From positions 1-39,249 of the IMG/VR virus record IMGVR_UViG_3300020463_000046: DNA of 39,249 nt; one strand, given 5' to 3'. Positions 13,049-39,249 of the stretch are shown piece by piece (within the stretch, counting starts at the first letter, position 1; each line of letters starts with the position of its first letter). The stretch is from a virus. The notes under the pieces were generated by a model. It did no database searches. It was not told the origin of the DNA and saw only the letters and a list, made by a program, of their open reading frames with translations. The translations under genes and the position numbers were made by a program.

Positions 13049-13268
13049 GGAGTTAATAAAAGTAGCAAAAGAAGCTATTGTAGATTCAGACGATGATATA
13101 TCAGCTGATAGACTTAAAAATGCTGCTGCTACAAAAAAACTAGCTATATTTGACGCGTTTGAAATACTACAACGTATACAGGAAGAAGAAGACATGTTAA
13201 ATGATAAACCTAAAGAAGTTAAAAAAGAAAGAACTTTTAAGGGTTTTGCTGAAGGTAGATCTAAATAA
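12993..13268 (+). CDS. Candidate terminase small subunit
   Basis: A 91-residue, mostly helical protein (IIQAGQKAVEELIKVAKEAI, then AAATKKLAIFDAFEILQRIQ) ending in a basic Lys/Arg tail (KEVKKERTFKGFAEGRSK). Its position directly before TerL, with TAATG overlap of stop and start, and a size and charge pattern like many small terminases, suggest the DNA-recognition subunit of the packaging motor. No helix-turn-helix is distinct. Its first 56 bases overlap the preceding gene in another frame. Confidence 0.5.
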   Translation: MDIKKTKQSIIQAGQKAVEELIKVAKEAIVDSDDDISADRLKNAAATKKLAIFDAFEILQRIQEEEDMLNDKPKEVKKERTFKGFAEGRSK

Positions 13269-15487
13269 TGTATACTCAAACCCTTTATAAAGTTTTAGAT
13301 GATTATATAAAGCCACATGTAATCAAAAAAAACAATAGATATAATAAATGGAAATACGGTTATAACAAAGAACACGACGTTATTGTTATAAGTAAAACAG
13401 GTAAAATAGGTGATATTTATGAAATACAAAACCTAAAAATTGCTTTACCAAAACAACCAAAAGACGTACACAAGTTTAAATCTAATACTTGGGAACAAAG
13501 CCCTATACCTGTTGAATTAAAAAAAATAAAAACGATATTTGATTGGGAAAGATACCCTATTGATTTCAAGGAAAAATGGTATGACTACATTGATAAAGAA
13601 TTTACTCGTAGAGACGAAGGTTTTTGGTTCTATAATAAAGGTGTGGCTACTTACATTAGCGGTACTCATTTTATGTACTTGCAGTGGTCCAAAATTGATG
13701 TTGGGAAACCAGATTATCGGGAAGCAAACAGATTATTCTTTATCTTTTGGGAAGCTTGCAAGGCAGATCCACGATCCTATGGGATGTGCTACCTTAAGAA
13801 CAGACGTTCTGGGTTTTCCTTTATGGCATCAGGAGAGGTTGTTAATATGGCAACCATATCAAGTGACTCTAGATATGGTATATTATCCAAGTCTGGGCCA
13901 GATGCTAAGACCATGTTTACAGACAAGGTGGTACCCATATCGGTTAACTATCCCTTCTTTTTCAAACCGATTCAGGACGGAATGGACCGTCCGAAGACCG
14001 AGCTTGCCTACCGTGTCCCAGCAAGTAAGTTCACCCGTAGAAAACTTACCATTACCCCCGACGAAACCCAACAGGAGTTACAAGGGCTTGACACCACGAT
14101 CGACTGGAAAAATACAGGTGATAACTCCTACGATGGGGAGAAGCTTAAACTCCTCGTCCATGATGAATCGGGTAAATGGGAAAGGCCGAACAACATCCTC
14201 AACAACTGGAGGGTTACGAAAACCACATTAAGATTAGGTAGTAGAATTATTGGTAAATGTATGATGGGTAGTACCTGTAATGCGTTAGACAAAGGTGGTG
14301 ATAACTTTAAAAAACTATATTATGACTCCGACGTTACAAAACGAAACCGCAACGGACAGACTCGCTCGGGATTATATAGTTTGTTCATACCTATGGAATG
14401 GAACTACGAAGGATACATTGATTCTTATGGCGTACCTGTATTCGAAACACCAGAGACTGAAAGTGTTGGACCGCATGGAGATATAATAGATTTAGGTGTA
14501 ATAGAATATTGGCAAAATGAAGTCAACGGTTTAAAGGGAGATCAAGATGCTTTAAATGAATTTTATAGACAATTTCCAAGAACCGAAGAACATGCTTTTA
14601 GAGATGAAGCTAAACAGTCTCTTTTTAATTTAACAAAAATATACGAGCAAATTGATTTTAACGGAGATTTAAAACATAGCTCTTTAGTGACAAAAGGTAG
14701 TTTCCAATGGAGAGATGGAATAAAAGATACTAGCGTTATATTTGTTCCAAATAACAGCGGTAGATTTTTAGTAACCTGGGTTCCACCTGAAAACTTACAA
14801 AATCGTGTAATAGTAAAGAATGGAGTTAAGTATCCAGGTAATGAAGATTTAGGTGCTTTTGGTTGTGACAGTTATGATATATCTGGAACGGTAGACAGTA
14901 GAGGTTCTAACGGATCATTACATGGTTTAACTAGTTTTAGCATGTTAGATGTTCCACCTAATCATTTCTTTTTAGAATATATAGCTAGGCCACAAACAGC
15001 TGAAATATTTTTTGAAGATGTATTAATGGCTTGTGTATTTTATGGCATGCCTATATTAGCAGAAAATAATAAACCTAGGTTGTTATATCATTTTAAAAGA
15101 AGAGGCTATAGAGGTTTTTCAATGAACAGACCAGATAAAATATATAATAAATTATCTGTTACTGAAAGAGATATTGGTGGTATACCAAACTCTAGTGAAG
15201 ATATAAAACAAGCTCACGCAGCCGCAATAGAATCTTATATAGAAAACTTTATAGGTTTACAAGATAAGGGTTATGGAGATATGTATTTTCAAAGAACCTT
15301 AAATGATTGGAGTAGATTTAATATAAATAATAGAACAAAACATGATGCGTCAATAAGTTCTGGACTCGCACTAATGGCTTGTAACAAAAATAGATACAGA
15401 CCTGTACCAAAAAGACAAGTTATATCTTATGATTTGGGTATAAAAAAATACGATAACACCGGTGTTGTTTCGAAAATTATAAAATAA
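13268..15487 (+). CDS. terL: Terminase large subunit (ATPase-nuclease)
   Basis: A 739-residue DNA-packaging motor subunit. The N-terminal ATPase has a deviant Walker A, LKNRRSGFS (176-184), and Walker B LKLLVHDE with catalytic Glu300 (293-300). The C-terminal RNase-H-like nuclease has candidate metal-binding Asp534 in GCDSYD and Asp693 in TKHDASISSGLAL. RRxGFS with a large TerL and this order of domains resembles Bacteroidetes short-tailed phage terminases. The part of the gene from about 13680 to 14220 (codons 138-318, Walker A through Walker B) is about 46% G+C by count against 32% in the flanking 60-base blocks, and uses C/G-ending codons, without breaking the reading frame. Stop abuts the portal start. 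Confidence 0.95.
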   Translation: MYTQTLYKVLDDYIKPHVIKKNNRYNKWKYGYNKEHDVIVISKTGKIGDIYEIQNLKIALPKQPKDVHKFKSNTWEQSPIPVELKKIKTIFDWERYPIDFKEKWYDYIDKEFTRRDEGFWFYNKGVATYISGTHFMYLQWSKIDVGKPDYREANRLFFIFWEACKADPRSYGMCYLKNRRSGFSFMASGEVVNMATISSDSRYGILSKSGPDAKTMFTDKVVPISVNYPFFFKPIQDGMDRPKTELAYRVPASKFTRRKLTITPDETQQELQGLDTTIDWKNTGDNSYDGEKLKLLVHDESGKWERPNNILNNWRVTKTTLRLGSRIIGKCMMGSTCNALDKGGDNFKKLYYDSDVTKRNRNGQTRSGLYSLFIPMEWNYEGYIDSYGVPVFETPETESVGPHGDIIDLGVIEYWQNEVNGLKGDQDALNEFYRQFPRTEEHAFRDEAKQSLFNLTKIYEQIDFNGDLKHSSLVTKGSFQWRDGIKDTSVIFVPNNSGRFLVTWVPPENLQNRVIVKNGVKYPGNEDLGAFGCDSYDISGTVDSRGSNGSLHGLTSFSMLDVPPNHFFLEYIARPQTAEIFFEDVLMACVFYGMPILAENNKPRLLYHFKRRGYRGFSMNRPDKIYNKLSVTERDIGGIPNSSEDIKQAHAAAIESYIENFIGLQDKGYGDMYFQRTLNDWSRFNINNRTKHDASISSGLALMACNKNRYRPVPKRQVISYDLGIKKYDNTGVVSKIIK

Positions 15488-17896
15488 ATGAATATAAATT
15501 ATAATACTAATAGCGCTTTTCCCAATCAGGTAGTACCTTTGGAGGAAAAATTAAGTATGAAATATGGTAGTCAGGTTGCTGATGCTATACAATCAGAATG
15601 GTTTGCGCAAGGTAGAACTAATGGAAATAGGTATTTAACGACCTTTAATAATTATCATACTCGTAGATTATACGCAAGAGGCGAACAATCAACTCAAAAA
15701 TATAAAGATGAATTATCTATAAATGGTGATTTATCTTATTTAAACTTAGACTGGAAGCCAGTACCAATATTATCTAAATTTGTAGATATACTTACTAATG
15801 GTATTTCTAACAAAGACTACGATATAAAAGCTTATGCTAACGATCCTATGTCTGTCAAGAAGAGAACAGACTACGCTACAAGGTTAGCTATGGATATGTA
15901 TGGTCAAGATATTATAGAAGAAGTAAAAGCTACCACAGGTCAAAACATATCACAAACAAATATACCAGCGGTGGATCTTCCTAAAACACTGGAAGAAATG
16001 GAGCTTCACTTACAATTATCTTATAAGCAAGCAATTGAAATAGCTGAAGAAGAAGCCATAACGCAAACATTAGATAAAAATAAATACGACTTACTTAAGC
16101 GTAGATTAAATTATGATTTAGTTACATTAGGTATTGCTGCAGCAAAAACAAATTTTAATACAGCTGAAGGTATAACTTTAGACTATGTAGATCCATCTTA
16201 TATGATTTATTCATATACAGAAGATCCTAATTTTGAGGATATATATTATGTTGGTGAGGTTAAAGCTGTTACTATTCCAGAAATAAAACAACAGTTTCCA
16301 AATATATCTGATGATGAATTAGAAAAAATACAAAAATCTTATAGCAACAACAATTACATTTATGGTTGGGGTGCTTATGATGAAAATACTGTTCAGGTTT
16401 TATATTTTGAATATAAGACTTATATGGACCAAGTATTTAAAATAAAACAAACAGATCAAGGTTTAGAAAAAGCACTTGTAAAGCCTGATACATTTGATCC
16501 ACCTGATAGTAGCAATTTTAATAAAGTTTCAAGAAGTGTAGAGGTTTTATTTGAAGGTGTAAAAGTTTTAGGAACAGATATGATGCTTAGCTGGAAAATG
16601 GCTGAAAATATGACTAGACCAATGGCTGATACTACTAAAGTTGAAATGAACTATGCTATATGTGCGCCGCGTATGTACAAAGGCAGAATTGAATCTATTG
16701 TAAGTAAAACTATAGGATTTGCTGACATGATACAATTAACTCATTTAAAACTGCAACAGGTTATAGCAAGAATGGTACCAGATGGAGTGTTTTTAGACAT
16801 GGACGGATTAGCAGAAGTTGATTTAGGTAACGGTACTAATTACAACCCAGCTGAAGCTTTAAACATGTATTTCCAAACTGGTTCTGTAGTAGGTAGATCA
16901 CTTACTCAGGACGGGACAATGAACGCTGGTAAAGTACCTGTTCAAGAGTTATCTACATCTTCTGGTCAAGCTAAAATAGGATCATTGATAAGTACCTATA
17001 ACTATTACGTACAAATGATACGTGATGTAACAGGTTTAAACGAGGCTAGAGATGGTAGTTTGCCTGATAGAGATACTTTAGTTGGTTTACAAAAAATTGC
17101 AGCTCAACAATCTAATATAGCTACAAAGCATATAAATAATGCTAGTTTATATTTAACATTAAGGTTATGTGAAAATATATCTAAAAAATTAATTGATGTT
17201 CTTAATTTTCCATTAACTGCTGAAGCTTTAAAAAATTCCATATCAACATTTAATGCTAACACATTAAAAGAGGTTTCAAATTTAAACCTACATGACTTTG
17301 GAATATTTTTAGACCTTGAACCAGATGAAGAAGAAAAAGCTCAATTAGAACAAAATATTCAAGTAGCACTACAGTCAGGCGGTATTGATTTAGAAGACGC
17401 TATTGATCTTAGACAAATACGTAATTTAAAATTAGCTAATCAAATGCTAAAACAAAAACGTAGGTTAAAACAAGAAAGAGATCAAAAAGCAGCTCAAGCT
17501 AACATGCAGGCTCAAGCTCAAGCTAACGCTCAATTGGCTGAACAAACTGCGTTAGCAGAAACTCAAAAACAACAAGTTTTAGTTGATCAAAAAATGCAAC
17601 TAGAACAAGCAAAATCTCAATTTGAAATACAAAGAATGCAAGCTGAAGCAGAAATTAAACGACAGTTAATGGCTGAAGAGTTTAATTACAATGTTCAACT
17701 TGCTAAAGAAAAATACTCTAGTGAAGGAAATAAAGAAAAAGAAATAGAGGATAGAAAAGATAAAAGAGCTAGAATAATAGGGACTCAACAGTCTCAAATG
17801 ATACAACAGAGACAAAACGATGGAACGCCTATCGATTTTGAATCTACTAATGATAGTTTAGGTGACTTTGGTTTAGAAGCCTTTGGACCTAGATAA
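15488..17896 (+). CDS. Portal protein
   Basis: An 802-residue protein placed directly after TerL, of the size and layout of the large portal proteins of Bacteroidetes and crAss-like phages. An N-terminal segment (YLTTFNNYHTRRLYARGEQS, then NLDWKPVPILSKFVDIL) is followed by a mixed clip/wing region and then a long helical segment. The C-terminal 170 residues are a Gln/Ala-rich coiled coil (AQANMQAQAQANAQLAEQ near 675), comparable to the barrel or crown of portals. It would form the twelve-subunit ring through which DNA passes and to which the terminase docks. It starts right at the TerL stop (TAAATG). The family match is from recognised pattern and context. Confidence 0.88.
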   Translation: MNINYNTNSAFPNQVVPLEEKLSMKYGSQVADAIQSEWFAQGRTNGNRYLTTFNNYHTRRLYARGEQSTQKYKDELSINGDLSYLNLDWKPVPILSKFVDILTNGISNKDYDIKAYANDPMSVKKRTDYATRLAMDMYGQDIIEEVKATTGQNISQTNIPAVDLPKTLEEMELHLQLSYKQAIEIAEEEAITQTLDKNKYDLLKRRLNYDLVTLGIAAAKTNFNTAEGITLDYVDPSYMIYSYTEDPNFEDIYYVGEVKAVTIPEIKQQFPNISDDELEKIQKSYSNNNYIYGWGAYDENTVQVLYFEYKTYMDQVFKIKQTDQGLEKALVKPDTFDPPDSSNFNKVSRSVEVLFEGVKVLGTDMMLSWKMAENMTRPMADTTKVEMNYAICAPRMYKGRIESIVSKTIGFADMIQLTHLKLQQVIARMVPDGVFLDMDGLAEVDLGNGTNYNPAEALNMYFQTGSVVGRSLTQDGTMNAGKVPVQELSTSSGQAKIGSLISTYNYYVQMIRDVTGLNEARDGSLPDRDTLVGLQKIAAQQSNIATKHINNASLYLTLRLCENISKKLIDVLNFPLTAEALKNSISTFNANTLKEVSNLNLHDFGIFLDLEPDEEEKAQLEQNIQVALQSGGIDLEDAIDLRQIRNLKLANQMLKQKRRLKQERDQKAAQANMQAQAQANAQLAEQTALAETQKQQVLVDQKMQLEQAKSQFEIQRMQAEAEIKRQLMAEEFNYNVQLAKEKYSSEGNKEKEIEDRKDKRARIIGTQQSQMIQQRQNDGTPIDFESTNDSLGDFGLEAFGPR

Positions 17897-17924
17897 TTTT
17901 TTTTTAATTTTATAATATTATATT

Positions 17925-19163
17925 ATGTCAGAAGTAAAAGCGACCCAAGAGGTCAAACAAGAAGGTAGTTTTTCTTTAAAAGGAAAGAAAACAAAACCTA
18001 AAAAATTGGTTGATAATAAAAAAAATGAACCAGTAAAAGTAGATTTAACTAAGCCCGAAGCACAAGGAGAGGTTGTGCAGGATATAGTTAAAGTAGATTT
18101 AACAGATAAAAAACAAGAAGATGCCGTTCAAGCACAAGAGACAAATGTGGGCGATGTTATTGTCGAAAAACCCGAAGACAAAAGCGACAGCAAAGGAGTG
18201 GTTAAAGAAGTACGGGACACCAAAGAGGAATTAGAAAGTCCCATACAAGAAATAACTGAAGAAGAGGTTGATGAAAAAACAGTTGAGTTATACGAAGAAG
18301 CTGAGCAAGCTGTTAAAGAACAAGTTATACAAGGTAAAAAGTTACCTGAAAATATACAATCACTTGTAGATTTTATGTCAGAAACAGGTGGTACAATAGA
18401 GGATTATGTAAGATTAAATCATGATTACTCTAATGTAAACGAAAATGTATTACTAAGAGAATACTATAAACAAACTAAACCTCATTTAAATCAAGAAGAA
18501 GTTGACTTTATTATGGAAGACAGCTTTTCTTTTGATGAGGAAATTGATGAGCCAAGAGATATTAGAAAAAAGAAATTGGCTTTCAAAGAAGAAGTTGCTA
18601 AAGCTCGATTAGAGCTTGATGCTATGAAGGATAAATATTATCAGGAAATCAAGTTGAGACCTGGTATTACCCAAGATCAGCAGAAAGCCACGGACTTTTT
18701 CAATAGATATAAGGAGCAGCAAGAAGTAGCTCAAGAACAAGCTAGTGATTTTAAATCTAAAACTGAACAAATTTTTACTGAAGATTTCAAAGGTTTTGAT
18801 TTTAGTTTAGGTGAAAAAAAGTTTAGATACAAAGTTCAAAATCCAAAGCTAGTCGGACAATCACAAATTGACATTAATAACTTTATTAGTAATTACATAG
18901 ATAAAGAAGGTAGAGTTACTGATCCAAGTGGTTATCACAAAGCGCTTTACGCTGCGATGAATGCGGATAAAATCGCTAATCATTTTTACGAACAGGGAAG
19001 AGCTGACGGCGTTAAAAACGTTGTTGATTCTTCTAAAAATCTAAGTAGTGACAAGCCTAGGCAAGTTGCCGACGGAAACGTCTTTATAAATGGTTTAAAA
19101 GTAAAATCAATAAGTGGTTTGGATTCGTCTAAACTGAAAATTAAAAAACGAAAATTTAACTAA
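17925..19163 (+). CDS. Scaffold-like protein
   Basis: A 412-residue, very charged protein lying between portal and major capsid, where scaffolds sit. The first 130 residues are disordered-looking Lys/Glu/Val/Gln (VKVDLT repeated at about 37-42 and 55-60), then come acidic and coiled segments. A Lys-rich tail ends the protein (SKLKIKKRKFN), as in capsid-binding scaffold C-termini. No protease triad is visible, so a protease fusion is not supported. It would guide assembly of the capsid shell and then leave or be degraded. Confidence 0.7.
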   Translation: MSEVKATQEVKQEGSFSLKGKKTKPKKLVDNKKNEPVKVDLTKPEAQGEVVQDIVKVDLTDKKQEDAVQAQETNVGDVIVEKPEDKSDSKGVVKEVRDTKEELESPIQEITEEEVDEKTVELYEEAEQAVKEQVIQGKKLPENIQSLVDFMSETGGTIEDYVRLNHDYSNVNENVLLREYYKQTKPHLNQEEVDFIMEDSFSFDEEIDEPRDIRKKKLAFKEEVAKARLELDAMKDKYYQEIKLRPGITQDQQKATDFFNRYKEQQEVAQEQASDFKSKTEQIFTEDFKGFDFSLGEKKFRYKVQNPKLVGQSQIDINNFISNYIDKEGRVTDPSGYHKALYAAMNADKIANHFYEQGRADGVKNVVDSSKNLSSDKPRQVADGNVFINGLKVKSISGLDSSKLKIKKRKFN

Positions 19164-19179
19164 TTAAAACTTTTAAATT

Positions 19180-20643
19180 ATGGGAATTTTAACTCCACAA
19201 TTTGGTACAATAGTTCCTTCGCAGTTGCAACAAACTCTTGCGAGTAACTATTTGACTTTTGACGGCGCTGCTGGTGGAAATTTCGCACAACAATACTTAC
19301 CTGAGCTTTATGAGCAGGAAGTTGAAAGATATGGTAATAGAACTTTATCTGGATTCTTAAGAATGGTTGGTGCTGAATTACCAATGACGTCTGACCAAGT
19401 AATCTGGTCTGAACAAAATAGATTACACATTGCATATGACAACTGTATTAATGGTGGTGCTGCTAATACAATACAAATTCCAGTTGCTGCAGATATTAAC
19501 AACGTTGTTTCACCGCAACAAACTATCGTCGTAATGGATGATTTTGGTGGTGAGTCAAAATGTTTAGTTGTTGATTCTGATTTAAGAACAGCTGCTGCGG
19601 GTGGTACTGGTATACTTAATGTACTACCTTACGGTTCTGCTGATTTAGGAACTGAAGGTCTTGTAGGTAACGTAAAGATATTTGTTTACGGTTCTGAATA
19701 TCCAAAAGGAACAAACACTACAATCGCTCCTTCTGCTGCTGGTGTAGCTGTTGCTGGTAATGATTTTCCAATCGCTACTGTAACACCTGACTTTACTCAA
19801 TTTTCTAACAAGCCTATCATTATTAGAAGTCAATATTCAATCAATGGTTCTGACACTGCTCAGATCGGTTGGGTAGAAGTTGCTACTGAAGATGGTACGT
19901 CTGGATATTTATGGTACTTAAAAGCTGAGTCTGAAACAAGACTTAGATTTGAAGATTACTTAGAAATGTCTGTTGTAGAAGGTGAGCAAGTTGATGCTGC
20001 TGGTGGTTCTACTATTGCGAATGTAACTGGTACTGAAGGTTTATTTGCTGCTATTGAAGATAGAGGTAATGTACAAGTTGGATTTGCTGCTGGAACAGGT
20101 ATTAGTGACTTTGATGATATTCTTAGAAACTTAGATACTCAAGGAGCAATTGAAGAGAACATGTTATTCTTAAACAGAAATACTAACCTTGATTTTGATG
20201 ATATGCTAGCTGCTATATCTTCAGGTGCACAAGGTGGTACTGCGTTTGGTTTATTTGAAAACTCTGAGGAAATGGCATTAAATTTAGGTTTCACTGGTTT
20301 TAGAAGAGGTTCTTATGACTTTTATAAAACTGACTGGAAATACTTAAATGATGCTTCTACTCGTGGTGCTATGAGTGGACCTGCTTCTATTGAAGGTGTA
20401 TTAGTTCCTGCTGGAACAAGTACAGTTTACGATCAGATTTTAGGTACTAACATTAGACGTCCTTTCTTACATGTAAGATATAGAGCGTCTCAAGCTGATG
20501 ATAGACGTATGAAGTCTTGGTTAACTGGATCTGTTGGTGGAGCTTTCACTAGCGATTTAGATGCTATGACTGTAAACTTCTTATCTGAAAGATGTTTAGT
20601 AACTCAAGCTGCTAACAACTTTGTATTATTCAAAGGAGTGTAA
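19180..20643 (+). CDS. Major capsid protein
   Basis: A 487-residue protein directly after the scaffold-like gene, followed by a strong hairpin, and with a codon pattern suited to high expression (GCT, GGT, ACT preferred). Features typical of long HK97-fold capsid proteins: an N-terminal helical arm (LPELYEQEVERYGNRTLSGF), large beta domains with Ala/Gly-rich loops, and a C-terminal domain (RRPFLHVRYRASQADDRRMK, then NFLSERCLVTQAANNFVLF). Comparable ~490-residue capsid proteins are found in crAss-like phages. No cleavage site is obvious. HK97 fold is inferred rather than read directly. The leader has no Shine-Dalgarno (CTTTTAAATT). Confidence 0.85.
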   Translation: MGILTPQFGTIVPSQLQQTLASNYLTFDGAAGGNFAQQYLPELYEQEVERYGNRTLSGFLRMVGAELPMTSDQVIWSEQNRLHIAYDNCINGGAANTIQIPVAADINNVVSPQQTIVVMDDFGGESKCLVVDSDLRTAAAGGTGILNVLPYGSADLGTEGLVGNVKIFVYGSEYPKGTNTTIAPSAAGVAVAGNDFPIATVTPDFTQFSNKPIIIRSQYSINGSDTAQIGWVEVATEDGTSGYLWYLKAESETRLRFEDYLEMSVVEGEQVDAAGGSTIANVTGTEGLFAAIEDRGNVQVGFAAGTGISDFDDILRNLDTQGAIEENMLFLNRNTNLDFDDMLAAISSGAQGGTAFGLFENSEEMALNLGFTGFRRGSYDFYKTDWKYLNDASTRGAMSGPASIEGVLVPAGTSTVYDQILGTNIRRPFLHVRYRASQADDRRMKSWLTGSVGGAFTSDLDAMTVNFLSERCLVTQAANNFVLFKGV

Positions 20644-23670: not shown

Positions 23671-26600
23671 ATGGCGGAATTTAAAAATGTTTTTATAAAA
23701 TCTAAAATGAACAAAGATCTTGATGATCGTTTGTTACCACAAGGAGAATATAGAAACGCAGTAAATATACAAGTCAGTAAGTCCGAGTCTGAAGACGTTG
23801 GGGCACTAGAAAATGTTTTAGGTAACGATAAAATCATTAGTTTTGAAAATATTACAGGAGAAGATGATGTAATTTGTATAGGTTATTTAGTGTCAGAAGT
23901 TAATTCTAGTGTTTACTTTTTTTTAACATCAAACACTTTAACCAGCAACTCAAACGGTGTTTACAGTCCTGGTGCTTCAAACTTTATTATTGAATCTATA
24001 ATATCTCAGGGCGTGGCTATAAGTAATACTATACTTGTTGAAGGAGCTTTTTTAAATTTCTGGGAAGGCACACCTATATATGGAGTTAATTTATTAGAAG
24101 ATTTATTGTTTTTTACTGACAACCGAAACCAACCTAGAAAAATAAATATTAGCTTTGCTAAAGATTCACCTGGTTATTATAATATAGAGGACACAATAAG
24201 CGTTGCAAAGTACATGCCTTATAAAGCTCCTTTATTATGGCAAGAAATAACACAGAAAGTTATAGATGATAGTGGTACTCCAGCTGATTTAACACCAGCT
24301 CTTGGAGAATATCAAACAACTATGCAAGATGTTGTTAGTGAGTTTTTACCCGACGGTACTACAAATAACCCATATGAAGATCCTTTGTATCAAGGTGATC
24401 CCGATTATTTAGAAGATAAATTTGTTAGGTTTAGCTATAGATTTAAATTTGACGACGGAGAGTATTCTGTATTTGCTCCTTTTACTCAAGAGTGTTTTAT
24501 ACCTCAACAAGATGGTTATTTTTTATTTAATCCATCAGGAAGTGATAATGATGATAATGACATGTCAGCTGCTTATAGAAGTACAATAGTTGATTTCATG
24601 GAAAACAAAGTTAATCAGTTGACCTTGTTAATTGAAATGCCTGAAAATCAAGATCCAGCTTTTCCAGGTACAAGACTAGATAATGTTACAGATTATTTTA
24701 AAATAACAGAATTAGAAATATTATTTAAACAATCTGACGGTTCAGCTGTTTTAGTTGTAGACACTATAAGTGCAGATCAAATAAAAGCACAATATGATCC
24801 TACTGGTTTAGGTAATACGTATTTATATAAATACTCTGGTACAAAACCATTTAAAACTTTACCTGAAAATCAATTAGTTAGAGTTTATGATAAAGTACCA
24901 GTAAAAGCTTTAGGTCAAGAAGTAATAAGTAACAGAGTTGTATATAGTAATTTTCAAACTAGACATACCCCACCTCCTGGTATTGATTATAATGTTGGAG
25001 CTGGTCCTAAACTAGCTTTTGATGTTACTACTCCAGCAACTTCTGTTTCTTGGAATACAAGCATTGTTGAATATCCTAATAGCACTTTAAAACAAAATAG
25101 AAATTATCAAGCAGGTTTTGTATTGTCTGATAGGTTTGGTAGAACTACTTCAACATTGCTTTCAAATCAAGCAACTGTTTCTGCATCTACAGCATCTCAG
25201 TTATCTACAGTTTATTCTGCTTACAATATACCGCAAGCTGATGGTGGTCCAGATATAGGACAATGGCCTGGTGATGCGTTGTTTGTTCAAGTTAACGACA
25301 CAATTAGTGAAACACCTATTGCTCAAAACTTATATCCAGGCACCTATAAAGGTGACCCAACACAATCAGATTATAATCCATTAGGATTTTATTCATGGAA
25401 AATAGTTGTAAAACAACAAGAACAAGATTATTATAATGTTTATTTACCGGGTATACTAGCTTCATATCCTGAAGATCCAACAAAAGAACTAGGCTTAACA
25501 TCACACATAGTGTTATTAAATGATAATATAAACAAAGTTCCTAGAGATTTAAGCGAGGTTGGTCCCGATCAAAAACAATTTAGAAGTTCTGTTCAGTTGT
25601 TTGGTAGAGTTGAAAATACAACTCAAACACCAGTAGGAGCACCTGCGTTAGACTTTGGTGTTGTTAATCAACAATACTATCCTTCTAGATTTTCAGATAC
25701 AGTATCTACAATATCTACTGAGTTTGAACTTTTTAATATAGATGTAACAGGAGCATTTCCACCAGATATACAAGCTTCTTTTTATGAAGCAGAATCAAAT
25801 CCTTTAATAGGTAGAATTAGTACAACTAATCAAATAGGTCAAATAGAACCAACATCAGGTGGTGGTACTTATTCTATTTTTAATTTAGCAGTGTATGAGA
25901 CAGAGCCTACAGAATCAAGATTAGATATATATTGGGAAACAAGTACGACTGGTACTATAGCGGATTTAAACGAACAAGTTGAGGAAACTGGAGGGCAAAC
26001 TATATTTCAAACTGTAAACTTTAATTTTGAGTTTAATGAATTTTTTGGAATATTTGACCCTGCGGTAACAGGTGCTTGGGATCCAGCTGTACAAGGAACA
26101 CCAGAGCAGCCAGGCCCAGCGTATCCTTCGTGTACACCTACACCTGTAAATGGAGAGTGTGGTAGATATAGAAATATTGTAGCTGGTCCTTTTTTCTTTG
26201 AAGATACAACTTCTACTAATATCGTTGATGTTATAGTAGAAGGTTTTACCGTAACAGATGGCGCCGGTGTAGACGTAACAACTGACTTTGAAATTCTTCA
26301 AATATACGGAACAGGTTCAACAATACCTGGGCCAGGTAACTATATAAAATACGATGGAACAACTGTTCCTGCAGTTGCATATGTGCATGATTCTTTTTTA
26401 TTGGTAAACAAGTCGTACAGATTATGGCAAACAACAACATTAAACTCTCAAGAGTTTGACATAGAGCTACAAGTAAGTGACGCAAGCGTTCCTGCTCCAA
26501 GACCTATTAAAACGTTTACTTACACGCCATTAGGAAATGCAACTCAGCTAGATAATTTAAAAACAATTTTTGTAGGTGGAGAAAGTTTTGGATCTGTACC

Positions 26601-28295: not shown

Positions 28296-29828
28296 ATGGC
28301 ATTAATAGAAGTAAAATATTTTAATTCTTTTCTACTTAGAAAAAGTGTAGACTCATTTAACCAGCCACGATGGTATGGCTCTAGAGGTATACCTACAGTT
28401 GTAGGTGGTTGGGAACAGGCGCCTGGTGTTGACCCTGCTAATACTTTAAATTGGGCTATTGAAGAATCTAGAATTAGAGGTGGTTATAATAATACATCAA
28501 CGTCTTTAGGTGCTAAAGCTTATTTAGTAGAAGATGAACCAGAAGGAAGTATTAGAGGTAACACTATGATTTACTCTGGTATATTTAATTCTAGAACTGG
28601 AATAAATCAAACAAATCAGTTCCCTGTGGGTAGTGACATAACTAAATCCACTGATCCTGCAGATGGTAGTATACAAAGATTATACGCAGAAGATACTAAT
28701 TTAATTATATTTTCTGAAAAGAAAGTGAGTAGAGCTTTAATAGATAAAGACGCTATATATACAGCTGAAGGTGGTGGTGTACCGGTAAGTCAATTAAACT
28801 TAGTTATAGGACAAATAGTACCTTACGCTGGAAATTTTGGTATAGCTGATAACCCAGAGAGTTTTGCTGTATATGGTTATAGAAAATATTTTGTAGATAA
28901 GAATAGAAACGCTGTTTTAAGATTATCTAGAGATGGTATTACTGAAATATCTAACTATGGTATGATAGATTATTTTAGAGATACTCTAAGCAATGTTGAT
29001 ACAGGTTTTGGAACAGGTAAAATAATTGGAGGCTGGGATATATATACAAAACAATATACGTTGTCTCTTCAACAAAATAATTCTAACCCAGAACCAAGAT
29101 TTGAAACATTACAGTTTGACGAAAAAGTATTAGGGTGGCCTTCTTTCTATACGTTTAAACCTAGATGGATGTTTAGTTTAGCTAATAGATTTTATAGCGT
29201 AAGCAACGAAGGTGCTACTAATGACAATGTTTTTGTTCATAATTCACCTGACGTTCCTAGAGCAAAATTTTACAATGTGCAGGGTAAATCTAACATAACA
29301 TTTGTTTCTAATCCATCTGTTGATGTAAGTAAAGTTTTTAAAACTATAAACTATGAAGGTAGTAATGGTTGGGAAGTTATATCATTTGTTTCAGATATAA
29401 CTGGTGCAGATAGCTTTGAAGTAGATGGTCTAGGTCAACCAATTTGGCTATTACCACCAAAGCTAAGAGATACAACTAACAATATACATAGTTATTATGA
29501 AGGAGAGTATATTATAGACCCAATACAAGCTAGTCCAACATTTGGACAACCAGTATATAGACCAGGTTATGTAGCTGCTTTTGGCGATGACGATCCTCCT
29601 TATAACAGAGAGTATGGAGGATTTGTAAGAAAAGAAAATAAATATTACGCAAACTTAGTAAATAATAGTTCTGGTCAAACACAGCCAGGTGAAGTTAGAT
29701 TTGGTTCGGAAATGACAGGTATAAAAGCATATTACTGCACTGTTACAATTGAAAATGATGATTACACCGATCCAGGTGGTATGAAAGAATTATTTGCAGT
29801 TAACACTACGTTTGTTAAAAGTAGTTAA
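28296..29828 (+). CDS. Beta-propeller-like tail protein, partner of the hub
   Basis: A 510-residue protein, mostly beta. Repeated blade-like turns are seen: RLYAEDTNLIIFSEKKVSRA, then SFAVYGYRKYFVDKNRNAV, LRLSRDGITEISNYGMIDYF, IIGGWDIYTKQYTLSLQQNN. This set is shared in my memory with crAss-like and related phage tail-hub proteins, in some of which the two parts (this one and the previous gene) are one protein. It likely builds the tail tube or hub together with the preceding gene. A small inverted repeat (GTGTTTAAAACAT near 28268) lies in the 35-base gap before it. Confidence 0.62.
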   Translation: MALIEVKYFNSFLLRKSVDSFNQPRWYGSRGIPTVVGGWEQAPGVDPANTLNWAIEESRIRGGYNNTSTSLGAKAYLVEDEPEGSIRGNTMIYSGIFNSRTGINQTNQFPVGSDITKSTDPADGSIQRLYAEDTNLIIFSEKKVSRALIDKDAIYTAEGGGVPVSQLNLVIGQIVPYAGNFGIADNPESFAVYGYRKYFVDKNRNAVLRLSRDGITEISNYGMIDYFRDTLSNVDTGFGTGKIIGGWDIYTKQYTLSLQQNNSNPEPRFETLQFDEKVLGWPSFYTFKPRWMFSLANRFYSVSNEGATNDNVFVHNSPDVPRAKFYNVQGKSNITFVSNPSVDVSKVFKTINYEGSNGWEVISFVSDITGADSFEVDGLGQPIWLLPPKLRDTTNNIHSYYEGEYIIDPIQASPTFGQPVYRPGYVAAFGDDDPPYNREYGGFVRKENKYYANLVNNSSGQTQPGEVRFGSEMTGIKAYYCTVTIENDDYTDPGGMKELFAVNTTFVKSS

Positions 29829-32704: not shown

Positions 32705-35700
32705 ATGTACAAGTATAACGGAAACACGTATAGCTTAGAAGACTTAAAAATAGTTCTAGGTGTAGAAGAAATTACTCAAGATATTCTAGCTCAGTACGGT
32801 ATAACTGAGGCAGAAGAAGAAGTTAAAATAGACCCACCAACTACAAAAGTAGATAAAGTGGGAAAGAGCAACGATGTTGTAGAGGATGCGATTGCAACAT
32901 CGGACGAAGAAAGAGCATCCATGTTGGAATCAGAATTGGAACGTATTTCATCGGAATTAGAAAAGATAGATCCATATAAAGACGCAGAAACAGTTACATA
33001 TAAATCTTTTGGTGGTTATGAGCAGAAACAAATAGGTGTAGATAATGCTGCTTTAAAAAAAGAACAAAAGTTAAGAGAAAAAAGAAAGAAAACAAAAGAC
33101 GAACTAGAAAGAGTTTTATTTAACATAGGTCCTAATATAGATATACCAGCTACTTTAGTTAGTTCAGATGAGGAAACTGTAGAAAAATATCTACGCCAAC
33201 AAGTACCATGGGCTAGAGTAGAAAAGACAGACGCTGGTGATGGGGTTAATATATATATTGACGAAGATTTTTATGGTTTTGGTGAAGGTGAAATACCAGA
33301 TTGGATGCAAAAACCTAGATCAGAAGGTGAACCTATATATATAGATTTACAACCTAATACAGAAGAAGGTAGAGAAATAGCTATTGATCAATTTAAAAGA
33401 ATAAATGCGTTTAGTAATTCTTTAAGTCCAGACGCTAGAAGAGATTATACTTTAGATGTTGCTATAGCAAAAATGGAAGAACTTAAAGATCCTTCTGACT
33501 TAAATTACTTATTAAAAGGTACTGGCTACAGGATCGATTATGAAAAAACATATAGAGATTCTGGTATGGAAACAAGTGCTTTGAACGAAGGAGATCCTAT
33601 TATGCTTCCTGAACATAACTATGTTTTAGTAAAAGATGGCAGTGCAGAGACGGTAGATTTTGGAATAGAAAATGATGGTGAGCCTATTGTTGTAGCAAGT
33701 GACATAGGAGGTATAAGAACTGCATTAAAAGATAATATTATAGGTAGTGAATTATATGAAAAAATTATAAGTAATAATGCATTTGAAGCTCAAAAAGATT
33801 TTATACTAGCAAAAAACAGAGCTCTTAAAAGAGAATCACAAAAAATAACTAGCGCACCAGATTTTACTTTAGATTATTTTGAGGATCAATTTGAAAAAGA
33901 TTTATTAGAAGCTTTAGGTTATAAAAATAAAAAAGAAGCATACCAAGACCCTAGCGTTAGACCTTTGTTAGATCACTTTAGTTCTTTAACAAAAGCTACA
34001 AGACCTGGTGCTGTATCTACTTGGCAATTAGGTTTGACACAAAAAGTAATGAACTTTATTTTAGGAGTTGAAGAAACACCTGAAGCAGATAAAAGAAAAA
34101 ACAGAATATCAGCTTATCAAAATCTTAGTAATCTACCTGAAGATCTACAACAAAGATTAATAGATGCTGGATTTGGAGGGGATAACTCTAAGTTTTTACA
34201 AGACAATATAAACAAATATGCTCATAACCAACTAATAAATAAAAGTGATAAAATAATAGAAGGGGTTATGAAAAGAACCGGTAATCAGTCTCTTATTAGA
34301 TTATCTCAAAGGTTTTTAGAAGTTGACGAAAATATTTTTAAAGAAGAGGTTGATAAAAAAGTAAAAACAGTTCAAAAAGTAAACGATCAGTATCAAAAAT
34401 TATTTGCTCAAAGAGGAGAAAATATTATGAGCACAGCTCCAAAAGGTACTAAGTTTGACATAAGTACAATAGGTGGTGTTACTCAATTGAATTTAAATTA
34501 TGATGGTCCTGAAAATCCTGAGATCATGAGACAACTTAAAAAAGCAGGAGATGAGTTGTTAGACTTACAGTATGTTATGAATGTTTATCACCAAGATTAC
34601 GCGGGTACTATGCAAAACATACAAACTGAAATTGCTGAATACTATGCTCAAGGTAGAGGTGTAGATGAAGGCACATTTGATTTTGCTGCTAAAGATTATG
34701 ACTTAGGTAGTATTTTAGCTAAAGATATTAGTGATAGTTTTAAAAGCGTTTTTTTAACCGTGCCTACATTACTAGGTGAAGATAGTGCTGTGTTGGAACA
34801 AGAGAGAATGAATAAGAAAAACGAACTCTTTGAAACAATGATAGACTATGATGATGGTAATTTTTTAAGATATGCAATAAGAACTACTGGCCAACAGTCT
34901 GCTAATTTAACTCTAGCAATAGGTACAGCTGGTGGTGGTAGCGCTTTGGGTTTAACAAACGCTGTAACTAGAGTTGCAATAGGTACTACATTTGGTTTAA
35001 GTAGTGGTACTCAAACGTTTAGAGACCTTAAGAGTCAGCAAGAAATATATGACTACGCTGTGTTAAAAGGTAAGCAAGCTGATAGAGCTTTACGTGAAGG
35101 TATAATAGGTCAATATGAACATACTCAAATAATGCTTGATGTAAATAAAACTAAAGCAATGGGTAGACTTACTGATAATCAAATTATAGGAGCTAGCTGG
35201 GCAAACGGTTTTCTAGAAGGTGGAGTTACTACAGCGGTAGGTACAGCGCCTAACTCTATAAAACTATTAAAAGATTTTAAAGCACCAACAAAATTAACTG
35301 AAATAGGTAAAAACTTATTTAAAAGTGATGCTACTAAGTTGTATAACTTTATTGGTAAACCAATTGGTAAAAGAGTTGGTGGTGAGATTTTAGAAGAAGA
35401 ATTAATATATGGTGGTCAACAGTTTGTTACTGAGTATGGTATACTAGGTAGAGACTTTGATTTAAGTAATTGGGACGATGTCGCTGTAGCTTCGCTCGTA
35501 GTTAGCGGTGTTAGTCAAGGTCCTGGAGTTGGTTATTCTGGTATAATGACATATGGTGCAACTTCAAAATATGAATCAGCTATAAATAAACTAAGAATAA
35601 ATACTCAAAATCTAAGTGACTTAGTTGCTGACCCTAATAACAACTTAACAGATAAGCAAAGAAAAGATTTAATTTTTAGTATTGCTGAAAACTTAAAAGA

Positions 35701-38700
35701 ACAAGGTTTAGAAACAGATAAGCTTTCTATTGACGTTATGAACTTAGGTTCTGATAATGTAAAAAGATTAATAGGTAATTCTATAATAAAACAAGACCTA
35801 TTAAGACAGGCTGGAGTAACTCCTGATATGGATGATGTTCAACAAGCGGAGGTGTTAAACTCTTATAAAAAAGGTTTGAAAGAAAGTAATCCTCAAGCTT
35901 TAGAAGATTTTAATAATCAGTTAAATGCTATTGATACTCAAATAAACAATATTAAAAAGAAAGTTGAAAGTCCTGGTAGTTATAAAAGAGCTAAAGAATC
36001 TTTGGGTAATATATATGATGTATATGATGCTCAATATAAAAGAGAAGGTAGAGTTTTTGATAGTGAGTCAGATAAATTAGCAACAATTTTAGAAGACGTA
36101 AGGCAAGATATAAACACGTCTAACATAGATAAAGCTAAAGCAAATCCTGAAATAGTTGAAACTGTAGAAAATATAAGAGTAGATAAAGAAGGTAACGAAC
36201 GTTACACTAAGTCTGGCGAAAGTGATAAGAGGTTTAAACCTTTAAACGACGCACAGAAAGACGCTATGTATTCTGACTTTGGTAGATTAGTAACATTAAA
36301 TTCCGCTAGAGGAGTTGCTAATAAAATAAACATAGAAACATCTGTACAATCTATATTAGGCGATGATGTTAAACTAGAAGTTGCTAGTTGGAAAACTAAA
36401 GAAGATCTAGAAGCATTATTAGAAAACGAAATAAAAGATAAGCAAGAAAGGTTAGATGCTTTTACTAAGTTGAGAGATGGTAAAGTGTTTGGTTTAATTG
36501 TGGGTAATAAAATTATAACTCAAAATGAAAAACAAGCTCAAGAAGATTTAGACAAAGGAATTGTAAGAGCTGGTACGGTTGTGCTTCATGAATTAAACCA
36601 CGCTATTGATGATGGGCGTATTAACACTGCCGAAGGTAAATTAAACTATGCAACAAACTTATTTAAAGCTGCTAGCGAAAGTGACAATGCTCAATTAAAA
36701 GCTTTACATAGTTATACCATGGATTTATTAAATGGTATATACGGGCCAAGAGGAGAAACATTTGAAAACAGTGAAACGTTTAGAGATGAATACACAAAGT
36801 ATCTTCAAGAACAAGCTTTTGCTTATGAAGATCAACTACAATTAGAAAAAGACGAGAGTAGTTTAATAAAAGCTTTTAACAGTATTACTACAAACGCTAA
36901 TGCTTTAAACACACCTCAAAAAGCTTTAAACTACATGGTAGCTAATAACTCTGGATTTAGATCTGGTAAGTTAAGTAAAAAATCTCAAAATGCTTTAAAG
37001 AATAGAAAAGAAGGTGAACTTAAGTTTTCTGAAAAAAATATAAATGATCTTGCTGTAAAGTATAAAGCTGGTGAATTAAATGCAGAGCAGACTATGGATT
37101 TCTATAATCAATATAGAAATACAGCGTTAGCAGCTATGGGCTTTGATACTCGTAAAGGTGATATACCAACCGACAAGGCTTTAGGTTTTGCAACCGATGC
37201 TTTCGGTAGAGTAACTAGAACTTATAAACCAGAAGATGGATCCTTTACTAACTGGATATATAACACTATAGGTAGAGAAGGTAGAGCTAAAATAGGTCAA
37301 GAAATAGAACGTAAAAAAGCTACGTCACGTATTAGCGAAGCTCAAGAACAAACAAGGTTGAAGTCTACAGAAACTGCAGAAACAGGATTAGAACTAGAAG
37401 AAAGAGCCGCGCGTGAAAAGAAAGCTGAACTAAAACTAATTAACCCGTTAAAGTCAAAAGAAGTTGCTAGAAATATAAAAGAAATTGAAGCTGCAGTTGC
37501 TATTACGCCATCTAAAGCACCTATAGCTGACTTTAAGAACATATCTCAAGACTTCGGAGGAAAGGTTGCTAGTATAATTTTTAATGTCCCAGAAACAAAA
37601 ATCACTGATGGCACTAAAAACCTTACTTACGCTAAAAAAATTGTTGATGGTATACCAGAAGCGTCTGAAGCTGGTAATATACAAAACATATATTCTGATT
37701 TACAAGCATTAGCGCGTGATATAAAATTATTGCCTGATACTAATGTAACATCAGAGGAATCTAGAGTTGGTAATGAAAAAGTTACTGTAACAAGAGATGT
37801 GCAAGGTAGATCATTAGGCTTACCTAATAGAATTATAAAATACTTTTATGAAGATACAGGTAAAAGATCTAGAGGTACAACCTCTCAAACAAAAGTATAT
37901 AGAAAGAAAAAGAAATTTAATAACCCTACTTCTCAAGTTTTAAAAGAAGTACAGCGTGAGATGGGTATAACTCCAGCTAGAGAGTTAAATAAATATGACA
38001 GAACAATAGGTCAATTTTTAAAAGGTTTTGCTAAAGTAAAAGGCGCAGTTGCTTCGGTTGCTGTAGCTAAAAACAAAGTAAAAGCTATGGACTTAAAAAC
38101 TGCTAAAGGTAAAAAACAAATCGAAGCAGATGTTGGTGCTGGTAGATCTCGTGTTCAGTTTAGTGAAAAAGGAAAAGTTAGAAGAGCGTTTGATTTAGAG
38201 CTTAGTGGTAGATCTAAGGTAGATAGATTATTGTCTGTTTATAATTTAGCACCCACGCTTGATTTAAAAGTAGATATACTAACAACAGAAGGCAGAGCTA
38301 AAATAATAGACGCGTATAAAAAAGTAGTTGCATTAGGTCCAAAAGAAATGTGGATTGGTAAAAAAGGTGGTAATGTATTTACTACTAGTGGTAAAGACTA
38401 CGGTGTTAGCATGTCTGAATTTAAAAAAGATGGATCTAAAAACCCTAAGTATACTAAACAAAAAGCAGACGCGCTACGCCAGTTAAGAAAAGATATTAGT
38501 GACATGATAAACAATCCTGACACTAAGTTTGGCGCTCCAATAAAAGGTGTTACAGATTTTACTTTATCTTCTTATAGCACTATATTTAAAGGATCTGAGG
38601 CAGATATTAAATCTAAATCTAAAGCGTTTAATGATAAGGTTAGTAAAATACATAGAGCTTTATGGGATAGAATAAATAAATCTAGTAAAAAAGACATACC

Positions 38701-39249
38701 AGCTATAGCTACTTATTTAAAATTAGTTGCAAATCATACTGGTCACTGGCACAAGTTGGGTGCTCAAATATTTGGTTACACTGTTAATCCTAAATTAAGA
38801 TATGAGTATGAACATGCTATGCCTGCTACTTCTGCTTACTTGTATTTAATAGACGCTGTATTAAGTAAAAATAATTTTAATCAAGCGTATGACTTAGTTA
38901 TAGATAACTATAAACTAATAGCGTTAGATAAAGCAGAAGATAATAAACTAAGAAAAGCTGGGCTACAAAGAAATATGCCTTTTGGCTGGGATATTGTAGA
39001 TAATTTTTGGTGGCAGAGATATTTTAATCCTTCTGTTGCTAAGCAAAATAACGGTATTAATCCTACATCTATTGTTGATTTAGACGGAAATAACTTACAA
39101 GATGTATTTAATATAAACAATGATGGATCAACACATGTTAAAGGTTTTAAACCTGAAGCTTCATCTGTTATAACGTTTGACAACAAAGCTGATAAAGCTA
39201 TGGCAGACGCTAGGAATAGCGTTAAGTATTCTGAAAAAACTAAAAAAGC
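32705..39249 (+). CDS. Giant internal virion protein with HELNH zinc-protease-like motif (cut by window end)
   Basis: The reading frame from the ATG at 32705 stays open to the window end: 2181 codons and no stop, so the C-terminus is missing. The N-terminus (about 50-140) is Lys/Glu-rich coiled coil (SELERISSELEKI). Near 733-775 there is a Gly/Ala/Leu/Thr-rich, membrane-compatible stretch (LTLAIGTAGGGSALGL). An HELNH zincin motif at 1295-1299 (AGTVVLHELNHAIDDG) marks a probable zinc metallopeptidase domain. Three short linkers follow: KFSEK (1440-1444), QFSEK (1818-1822), KYSEK (2174-2178). The size, position after other internal proteins and mixed domains fit the giant virion/cargo or polyvalent proteins of short-tailed phages, ejected into the cell. 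No RNA polymerase motif was seen. Start: 6 bases after the previous stop, without Shine-Dalgarno. Confidence 0.7.
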   Translation, partial: MYKYNGNTYSLEDLKIVLGVEEITQDILAQYGITEAEEEVKIDPPTTKVDKVGKSNDVVEDAIATSDEERASMLESELERISSELEKIDPYKDAETVTYKSFGGYEQKQIGVDNAALKKEQKLREKRKKTKDELERVLFNIGPNIDIPATLVSSDEETVEKYLRQQVPWARVEKTDAGDGVNIYIDEDFYGFGEGEIPDWMQKPRSEGEPIYIDLQPNTEEGREIAIDQFKRINAFSNSLSPDARRDYTLDVAIAKMEELKDPSDLNYLLKGTGYRIDYEKTYRDSGMETSALNEGDPIMLPEHNYVLVKDGSAETVDFGIENDGEPIVVASDIGGIRTALKDNIIGSELYEKIISNNAFEAQKDFILAKNRALKRESQKITSAPDFTLDYFEDQFEKDLLEALGYKNKKEAYQDPSVRPLLDHFSSLTKATRPGAVSTWQLGLTQKVMNFILGVEETPEADKRKNRISAYQNLSNLPEDLQQRLIDAGFGGDNSKFLQDNINKYAHNQLINKSDKIIEGVMKRTGNQSLIRLSQRFLEVDENIFKEEVDKKVKTVQKVNDQYQKLFAQRGENIMSTAPKGTKFDISTIGGVTQLNLNYDGPENPEIMRQLKKAGDELLDLQYVMNVYHQDYAGTMQNIQTEIAEYYAQGRGVDEGTFDFAAKDYDLGSILAKDISDSFKSVFLTVPTLLGEDSAVLEQERMNKKNELFETMIDYDDGNFLRYAIRTTGQQSANLTLAIGTAGGGSALGLTNAVTRVAIGTTFGLSSGTQTFRDLKSQQEIYDYAVLKGKQADRALREGIIGQYEHTQIMLDVNKTKAMGRLTDNQIIGASWANGFLEGGVTTAVGTAPNSIKLLKDFKAPTKLTEIGKNLFKSDATKLYNFIGKPIGKRVGGEILEEELIYGGQQFVTEYGILGRDFDLSNWDDVAVASLVVSGVSQGPGVGYSGIMTYGATSKYESAINKLRINTQNLSDLVADPNNNLTDKQRKDLIFSIAENLKEQGLETDKLSIDVMNLGSDNVKRLIGNSIIKQDLLRQAGVTPDMDDVQQAEVLNSYKKGLKESNPQALEDFNNQLNAIDTQINNIKKKVESPGSYKRAKESLGNIYDVYDAQYKREGRVFDSESDKLATILEDVRQDINTSNIDKAKANPEIVETVENIRVDKEGNERYTKSGESDKRFKPLNDAQKDAMYSDFGRLVTLNSARGVANKINIETSVQSILGDDVKLEVASWKTKEDLEALLENEIKDKQERLDAFTKLRDGKVFGLIVGNKIITQNEKQAQEDLDKGIVRAGTVVLHELNHAIDDGRINTAEGKLNYATNLFKAASESDNAQLKALHSYTMDLLNGIYGPRGETFENSETFRDEYTKYLQEQAFAYEDQLQLEKDESSLIKAFNSITTNANALNTPQKALNYMVANNSGFRSGKLSKKSQNALKNRKEGELKFSEKNINDLAVKYKAGELNAEQTMDFYNQYRNTALAAMGFDTRKGDIPTDKALGFATDAFGRVTRTYKPEDGSFTNWIYNTIGREGRAKIGQEIERKKATSRISEAQEQTRLKSTETAETGLELEERAAREKKAELKLINPLKSKEVARNIKEIEAAVAITPSKAPIADFKNISQDFGGKVASIIFNVPETKITDGTKNLTYAKKIVDGIPEASEAGNIQNIYSDLQALARDIKLLPDTNVTSEESRVGNEKVTVTRDVQGRSLGLPNRIIKYFYEDTGKRSRGTTSQTKVYRKKKKFNNPTSQVLKEVQREMGITPARELNKYDRTIGQFLKGFAKVKGAVASVAVAKNKVKAMDLKTAKGKKQIEADVGAGRSRVQFSEKGKVRRAFDLELSGRSKVDRLLSVYNLAPTLDLKVDILTTEGRAKIIDAYKKVVALGPKEMWIGKKGGNVFTTSGKDYGVSMSEFKKDGSKNPKYTKQKADALRQLRKDISDMINNPDTKFGAPIKGVTDFTLSSYSTIFKGSEADIKSKSKAFNDKVSKIHRALWDRINKSSKKDIPAIATYLKLVANHTGHWHKLGAQIFGYTVNPKLRYEYEHAMPATSAYLYLIDAVLSKNNFNQAYDLVIDNYKLIALDKAEDNKLRKAGLQRNMPFGWDIVDNFWWQRYFNPSVAKQNNGINPTSIVDLDGNNLQDVFNINNDGSTHVKGFKPEASSVITFDNKADKAMADARNSVKYSEKTKK

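Follow-up and report, generated by a model that had tools for sequence, protein, structure and literature searches.

Polyvalent proteins of phages and plasmids are large multidomain proteins with an embedded zincin-like metallopeptidase domain that carries an HEXXH motif and a downstream Glu, and a 2017 proposal holds that such zincins release the remaining domains by autoproteolysis (Iyer et al. 2017, PMC5512222). DdrB of phage P1, a zincin protein, is processed before packaging, and the section of that paper describing it names no site; nor is any junction peptide or cleavage site for polyvalent zincins named in the part of PMC5512222 on which we draw, or found by our searches of open-licence literature. 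The vRNAP of phage N4, a giant ejected virion protein (PMC12633501) with the same kind of HExxH domain, is packaged uncut (PMC5512222). For the cargo proteins gp45 to gp50 of phage phi-crAss001, extrusion through the tail with partial unfolding has been proposed, and the words cleav, proteoly and peptidase are absent from the main text of that report (PMC10172136). Here we analyze IMG/VR virus record IMGVR_UViG_3300020463_000046 (39,249 bases, AT-rich with 33% G+C; this whole stretch is referred to here as the window), which ends within the gene of a giant protein that has an embedded predicted zincin and short Phe-Ser (FS) peptides at the junctions between its domains. We consider it somewhat likely, from the evolution of these sequences, that the zincin cleaves its own chain at the junction peptides.

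Like the polyvalent proteins, the window giant combines several different domains in one chain (the zincin, a fold resembling sigma-70 region 2 and a conserved module termed EHAMP, with a HAD-type phosphatase next in relatives), and the predicted protease sits in the same chain as the junction peptides. It has a zincin in common with DdrB, and its size and HExxH domain in common with N4 vRNAP, the latter being packaged unprocessed and carrying an RNA polymerase. As with gp45 to gp50 of phi-crAss001, its gene is a giant, cargo-like gene in a muzzle-type podovirus, and ejection by partial unfolding through the tail would fit freely jointed domains. In contrast to the polyvalent proteins, it gave no Pfam match above cut-off to any named LPD, MuF or PBECR domain, a divergent copy being possible. 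We also examined seven LPD38-profile loci (199 genomes; two of the loci below the cut-off), where no repeated FS linker was seen by eye (each locus having 0 to 8 loose matches), and the notion of such linkers as a general trait of polyvalent proteins was dropped. Overall, the window giant is probably a polyprotein-like cargo protein of the polyvalent type that is packaged in the virion.

The preliminary description of this DNA had placed three peptides of the pattern [KQ][FY]SEK at residues 1440, 1818 and 2174 of the giant, and these positions are exact; we refer to the corresponding junctions as J0, J1 and J2 (Table 1). Among 20,000 shuffles of the window protein, this pattern, which was picked after the sites had been seen, occurred once in 208 sequences, twice in 1 and three times in 0. 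An AlphaFold model of residues 1180 to 2181 (32 sequences; mean predicted local distance difference test score, pLDDT, 77.5; predicted template modelling score, pTM, 0.40) had 133 of 1,002 residues below a pLDDT of 50. Each peptide follows a domain-like block, as had been claimed: J0 and J2 lie entirely, and J1 with four of its five residues, in segments below 50, the J2 segment (model residues 992 to 1002) coinciding with the fragment's end, at which a low score is no surprise. The regular spacing that had been read into the sites did not survive, since 378 and 356 amino acids are the sizes of two blocks and successive junctions of a relative, L033, are 367 and 178 amino acids apart.

Structural alignment of the predicted model with VIA-align 2 placed residues 25 to 254 on the zincin-type protease chain 1j7n (Z 5.6; root mean square deviation, rmsd, 5.5 over 176 residues) and the following block on sigma factors, with E. 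coli sigma70 as the best row (Z 7.2, rmsd 3.5 over 90 residues) and other sigma factors next; both Z values are moderate, and that for the sigma-like block is for a helical fold. Because the zincin ends at model residue 254 and the sigma-like fold starts at residue 264, J0 marks the boundary between the two. In an alignment of 32 proteins, H116, E117, H120 and the downstream E183 of the zincin are invariant, and in the window zincin an Asp stands three residues after the HEXXH motif.

Relatives of the giant were collected in several scans. The first returned one contig, 93% identical (L003), which leaves the frame near giant residue 1650 through either an error or a real frame change. Searching with the C-terminal module gave 20 relatives and with its profile 68 loci, some on contigs already seen. 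When the C-terminal domain was used as a profile, IMG/VR contained at least 534 relatives, 80 of them retained for analysis, and a second ordering of that profile yielded 80 loci, at least one of them (L193) on a contig already in the set. A 43-residue partial match at a single locus (L099), from a scan of a genome collection with the EHAMP-module alignment A1, was not used as a relative. Since none of the window giant (E 0.01), the L033 giant (E 0.001) or the L033 C-terminal domain (E 1) had a match among 50,697 phage records, these numbers point to a large, unstudied group of uncultured viruses. Proteins above cut-offs for shared 5-mers were dropped, as were those under 700 amino acids or, in later sets, up to 1,500; 70 giants were reduced in this way to 55 (5-mer sharing up to 0.30) and, without L031, which had no module match, to 54 for J1. 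The layout of the relatives, a composite of which not every protein has every part, runs from an N-terminal region through the zincin, J0, a variable block, J1, the EHAMP module, J2, the HAD-type phosphatase and J3 to a C-terminal domain.

Across these proteins FS is kept at the homologous junction while the surrounding linker varies. In a J1 alignment of the 54 non-redundant proteins that was not anchored on the motif, the first position read F in 50 (Y in 2, L in 2) and the second S in 51 (A in 2, N in 1), and the best of the 23 other nearby columns that were at least half occupied reached 28 of 54. The peptides recur in homologues at domain edges, a point that the alignment proposed in the preliminary description was meant to check; of the pattern given there, the F-S core is kept in relatives, mostly with K, E or R next, and the full [KQ][FY]SEK is narrower than what is conserved, its neighboring positions varying. 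FS followed by K, R or E occurred 188 times in 55 giants against 82.9 expected, compared with 46 against 58.3 in 244 other open reading frames (ORFs) of the same loci. FN, LS, IS and VS before K, R or E were also raised in the giants (1.56- to 1.84-fold), so part of this excess is general to these proteins.

Further evidence comes from comparing different, non-homologous junctions of one protein. In 124 non-redundant giants, each of J0 to J3 was assigned to the [FY]S that lay closest to a fixed distance from the domain anchors (53, 64, 50 and 74 sites, respectively; the window J2, whose HAD anchor lies outside the contig, was set by hand), and residues −1, +1 and +2 were compared. Matches within proteins numbered 208 in 196 pairs, whereas 111.3 (standard deviation [sd], 7.8) were expected; stricter removal of redundancy left 119 against 62.0, and the strictest set (64 proteins) left 74 against 42.6 (sd 5.2), with 0 of 2,000 permutations reaching any of these three sums. 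The control site J4, an FS located 24 residues beyond J3 inside a domain, gave no agreement in the same three sets (36 versus 43.4, 32 versus 32.1 and 23 versus 23.0), and neither did randomly chosen other FS or YS sites (60.5 versus 54.6; sd, 6.2). The shuffles ignore relatedness, which makes the exact p values too small; the same shuffles find nothing at J4. For 63 further proteins from the last scan, non-redundant with the first 124, 24 pairs gave 26 matches against 20.0 (sd, 2.4; p 0.009; control, 9 versus 12.4), and the combined set of 133 proteins gave 130 against 71.4 (sd, 6.4; control, 38 versus 38.8), five of the six junction pairs reaching p ≤ 0.025. Because the junctions of one protein agree in this manner, very probably one common factor reads the junction peptides.

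That this factor may be the zincin is suggested by J3. Given the distance between C-terminal domains, J3 type correlated with zincin distance (partial rank r 0.294, p 0.0005), the reverse partial correlation being 0.105 (p 0.0275); J4 behaved in the opposite way (zincin, 0.061, p 0.07; C-terminal domain, 0.198, p 0.0005), and distances between HAD domains, EHAMP modules or pre-zincin regions added little to the prediction of J3 once the zincin was known. Under a strict J3 linker pattern, found in 74 of 186 proteins (67, 54 and 46 after successive redundancy cuts), the partial r was 0.274, 0.262 and 0.193 for the zincin (p ≤ 0.002) and 0.102, 0.033 and 0.089 for the C-terminal domain. In a nearest-neighbor test on the 67 proteins, the zincin predicted J3 type better in 22 cases and the C-terminal domain in 5, with 22 ties and 18 cases of the same neighbor (sign test, p 0.0015). 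The sequences partly support the expectation that junction type tends to follow the zincin, at J3 in the first set and, in the enlarged set, under the strict definition.

An HEXXH motif was present in 158 of 173 non-redundant, 5′-complete giants, with a profile match alone in 4 and neither in 11. FS occurred at J3 in 85 of the 158, 2 of the 4 and 2 of the 11 (Fisher's test of 85/158 versus 2/11, p 0.029), a difference that is not independent evidence because those with neither zincin nor FS are in part close kin and their zincin-bearing kin often have no FS at J3 either. In L198, one of the two zincin-less proteins with FS at J3, the site appears J4-like by eye. A coupling of zincin loss to FS loss, hinted at by L032, was dropped when a directed scan gave a mixed picture; in the L032-like clade, several proteins with a zincin have ASK or SSK at J3, without the F. 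The ASK or SSK linkers at J3 of L201, L204, L209 and L210 could represent a further specificity type. L091 reads HDAFH at the zincin motif.

Several observations weigh against cleavage by the embedded zincin, beginning with the uncut packaging of N4 vRNAP. The giants of the cultured elemo (gp21), Manatee Spring and Gundel_1 phages have HEXXH and show no FSEK-type repeated linkers by eye, and those of phi38:1 and phi19:3 have no HEXXH. Of the 121 proteins that have the C-terminal domain, only 74 show FS at J3, the in-domain J4 being present in 91. The strict J3 definition was devised after a looser one (71 proteins, combined set) had given 0.121 for the zincin (p 0.011) versus 0.154 for the C-terminal domain (p 0.004). 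In the strict-set test, J4 also tracks the zincin weakly (0.109, 0.094 and 0.086; p 0.004 to 0.027), with stronger values for the C-terminal domain (0.177, 0.159 and 0.153). At J2, the association with the zincin has p 0.05 to 0.07 given the HAD domain, the C-terminal domain or the pre-zincin region (0.011 when the EHAMP module is given), J1 type tracks the zincin and the HAD domain alike, with the HAD domain ahead in the less redundant set (0.184 versus 0.086), and the J0-J1 pair alone shows no significant agreement (7 versus 5.1). L271 and L264 carry FS junctions without a detectable zincin, and L059 keeps J1 and J2 while reading EELSH at the motif. Finally, in a model of L033, only J1 falls in a segment below a pLDDT of 50, J2 and J3 lying in blocks averaging 68 and 62 (84 for the J4 block). 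The earlier expectation that the linkers lie outside predicted folded domains is accordingly borne out by the window model and, in L033, for J1, with middling confidence at J2 and J3. As for the earlier suggestion of a self-cleaving polyprotein built around the HELNH domain, agreement within proteins and the tracking of zincin relatedness at J3, in the first set and under the strict definition, speak for it, and the looser test and the giants of cultured cousins speak against it; evolution supports the idea of self-cleavage, and cleavage itself is putative.

Some of these points would also suit recognition of the peptides by another common partner in place of the zincin, be it a protease that the phage encodes separately, a factor of the portal or of ejection, or a protein of the host. 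Agreement within proteins demands just one common partner, FS junctions persist in L271, L264 and L059, none of which has an intact zincin, and the looser J3 set shows no zincin tracking. We nevertheless regard such a partner as rather unlikely, since J3 type tracks zincin distance above that of the flanking domains, also under the strict definition, and since HEXXH is so widespread among the giants.

It is improbable that FS serves a structural role without any recognition, as a hydrophobic staple and helix N-cap at the first helix of the next domain. The sequence F-S-x-x is compatible with a helix N-cap, the J3 peptide of the L033 model lies at the end of a predicted helix, and FS sites inside domains do exist, J4 being an example. 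However, T and D, although they can cap helices too, do not take the place of the J1 serine, and the sites in the window fall within or at the edge of segments with a pLDDT under 50; moreover, capping predicts no agreement at −1, +1 and +2 across unrelated junctions, and in-domain J4 indeed shows none.

We consider it very improbable that DNA recombines at the linkers or that they spread by copying from one junction to another during module shuffling by microhomology. Modules do differ between relatives, as with the kinase after J2 in L096, but serine codons do not agree between the junctions of one protein (60 of 196 pairs versus 61.7 expected), and the three window serines use both codon blocks (TCT, AGT and TCT at J0, J1 and J2). 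This lack of codon agreement speaks against linker copying at the DNA level and indicates that selection acts on the peptide. That the window peptides resemble one another by chance, or are simply flexible linkers that have no function, is scarcely credible even for a pattern chosen post hoc in a K- and E-rich protein of an AT-rich genome, as it is contradicted by the shuffles, the 54-protein J1 alignment and the FS[KRE], J4 and random-site controls.

If the zincin is indeed the factor, it would recognize approximately [K/Q/M/N/A]-F-S-[K/E/R]-[S/T] in interdomain linkers and cut its own chain, or that of a neighbor, at FS. Since a large hydrophobic residue directly following the cleaved bond is favored by many zincins, the bond before F is our guess for the cut position. 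Cutting would free the zincin, the sigma-2-like domain, the EHAMP module, the HAD-type phosphatase and the C-terminal domain. We infer cleavage as an event, the exact bond and the timing, whether during assembly, in the head or in the host cell. More tentatively, zincin and junction peptides may co-evolve as lock and key, with lineage-specific peptide types (such as FSEK, QFSKT or KFSKV); modules such as the sigma-like factor, a nuclease-like module, a kinase-phosphatase and the C-terminal domain would be freed on delivery and could be swapped as cassettes provided that they bring the right peptide.

Table 1. Features of the window IMGVR_UViG_3300020463_000046 (aa, residues of the giant protein)
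Feature	Coordinates	Strand	Basis and remarks
Terminase large subunit, portal, virion structural protein	13268..20643	+	PHROGs matches; used for phage placement
Muzzle-match gene 1	23671-28260	+	PF25731 (crassvirus muzzle protein), 28.9 bits, cut-off 27
Muzzle-match gene 2	28296-29828	+	PF25729 (crassvirus muzzle protein), 37.8 bits, cut-off 27; neighbors gene 1
Giant multidomain protein	32705..39247	+	2181 aa within contig; 3′ end missing, contig ends
Zincin-like metallopeptidase domain (aa ~1204-1433)	36314..37003	+	VIA-align 2 and motif; predicted
HELNH active-site motif (aa 1295-1299)	36587..36601	+	Third predicted zinc ligand Glu1362
J0, KFSEK (aa 1440-1444)	37022-37036	+	Model residues 261-265, inside segment 258-265, pLDDT < 50
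Sigma-70 region 2-like fold (aa 1443-1534)	37031..37306	+	VIA-align 2, model residues 264-355; predicted
J1, QFSEK (aa 1818-1822)	38156-38170	+	Model residues 639-643, four in segment 640-651, pLDDT < 50
Conserved EHAMP module, W-H and YEYEHAMPAT motifs (aa 1985-2128)	38657..39088	+	Alignment A1 (21 proteins), profile match
J2, KYSEK (aa 2174-2178)	39224-39238	+	Model residues 995-999, inside segment 992-1002, pLDDT < 50

The window giant gave no match of value in phage records, Pfam or PHROGs, where a divergent Pfam domain is still possible; a PF08385 match (0.0075) was under the family cut-off and was discarded as chance. The sigma-like block had no sequence match in PDB sequences, NCBIfam or Pfam, a lectin match (E 0.027) being taken as chance, and Foldseek returned no match at E ≤ 0.001 for either the window or the L033 model, with weak sigma factors for the former. 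A predicted sigma-70 region-2-like fold directly after J0, in a probable virion cargo, might direct the RNA polymerase of the host or of the phage at an early stage of infection. In the part of the giant contained in the incomplete contig, neither an RNA polymerase match nor the DxDGD motif of the crassvirus RNA polymerase type was found. The EHAMP module looks HNH-like by eye, its invariant positions being W, H, E-x-E-H-A-x-P, N and R; it had no significant PDB or Pfam match, and its profile A1 and a second profile, A2, found nothing below E 0.09 among PDB sequences.

In relatives, J2 is followed by the HAD-type phosphatase, recognized by a DFDDT motif and weak fold matches (class C acid phosphatases by Foldseek for the L033 model, probability up to 0.94, E 0.18 or more). 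L096 carries a P-loop kinase of the polynucleotide-kinase or zeta type (PF13671, 4.9e-7; giant residues 2446 to 2594) after J2 and before the HAD domain, and this adjacency suggests a kinase-phosphatase pair. L031, a homologue through the sigma-like region (64% identical there) and complete at 3,156 amino acids, reads QYSEK at 1806 (J1) and KFSEK at 2399 (J3) and has no FS at the J0 and J2 positions. Based on its layout, the missing C terminus of the window giant, predicted at about 975 residues, probably comprises a HAD domain, then one more site of the FSEK type, and the C-terminal domain. Short Cys/His-rich, zinc-ribbon-like tails with C-Y-x-H-D at their end were noted in several giants, those of L018, L022, L024 and L026.

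The window phage is podovirus-like, as judged by its terminase and portal matches, by two neighboring genes that exceed the Pfam cut-offs for crassvirus muzzle proteins, and by its nearest terminase records. Among 87 phage records matching the terminase (Flavobacterium, 68; Cellulophaga, 15; Tenacibaculum, 2; Maribacter, 1; unclassified, 1), the nearest were Manatee Spring phage (63% identical) and the Flavobacterium elemo phages (44%), with Cellulophaga, Tenacibaculum and Maribacter phages ranking behind and taxonomy lines that include Elemovirus, Pervagoviridae and Pachyviridae. The host is thus probably a member of the Bacteroidota. A large gene lies at the corresponding place in the Manatee (MW202828), elemo (gp21 of NC_055852) and phi38:1 phages and is annotated as structural in elemo, for gp21, and in phi38:1; tblastn of the window protein against phage records that included the elemo gp21 and Manatee giants gave no match at E 0.01. 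Reading translations by eye, we also noted a GroEL-like ORF of 515 amino acids followed by a GroES-like ORF at window positions 4283 to 6071; GroEL and GroES are both annotated in Manatee Spring phage.

Autoproteolysis by polyvalent zincins had already been proposed in 2017 (PMC5512222), and what is added here is a set of candidate cleavage sites predicted to the residue, together with the predicted zincin in the same chain. If this proposal is true, a lineage-specific junction code would explain how such phage proteins exchange domains while their processing is kept.

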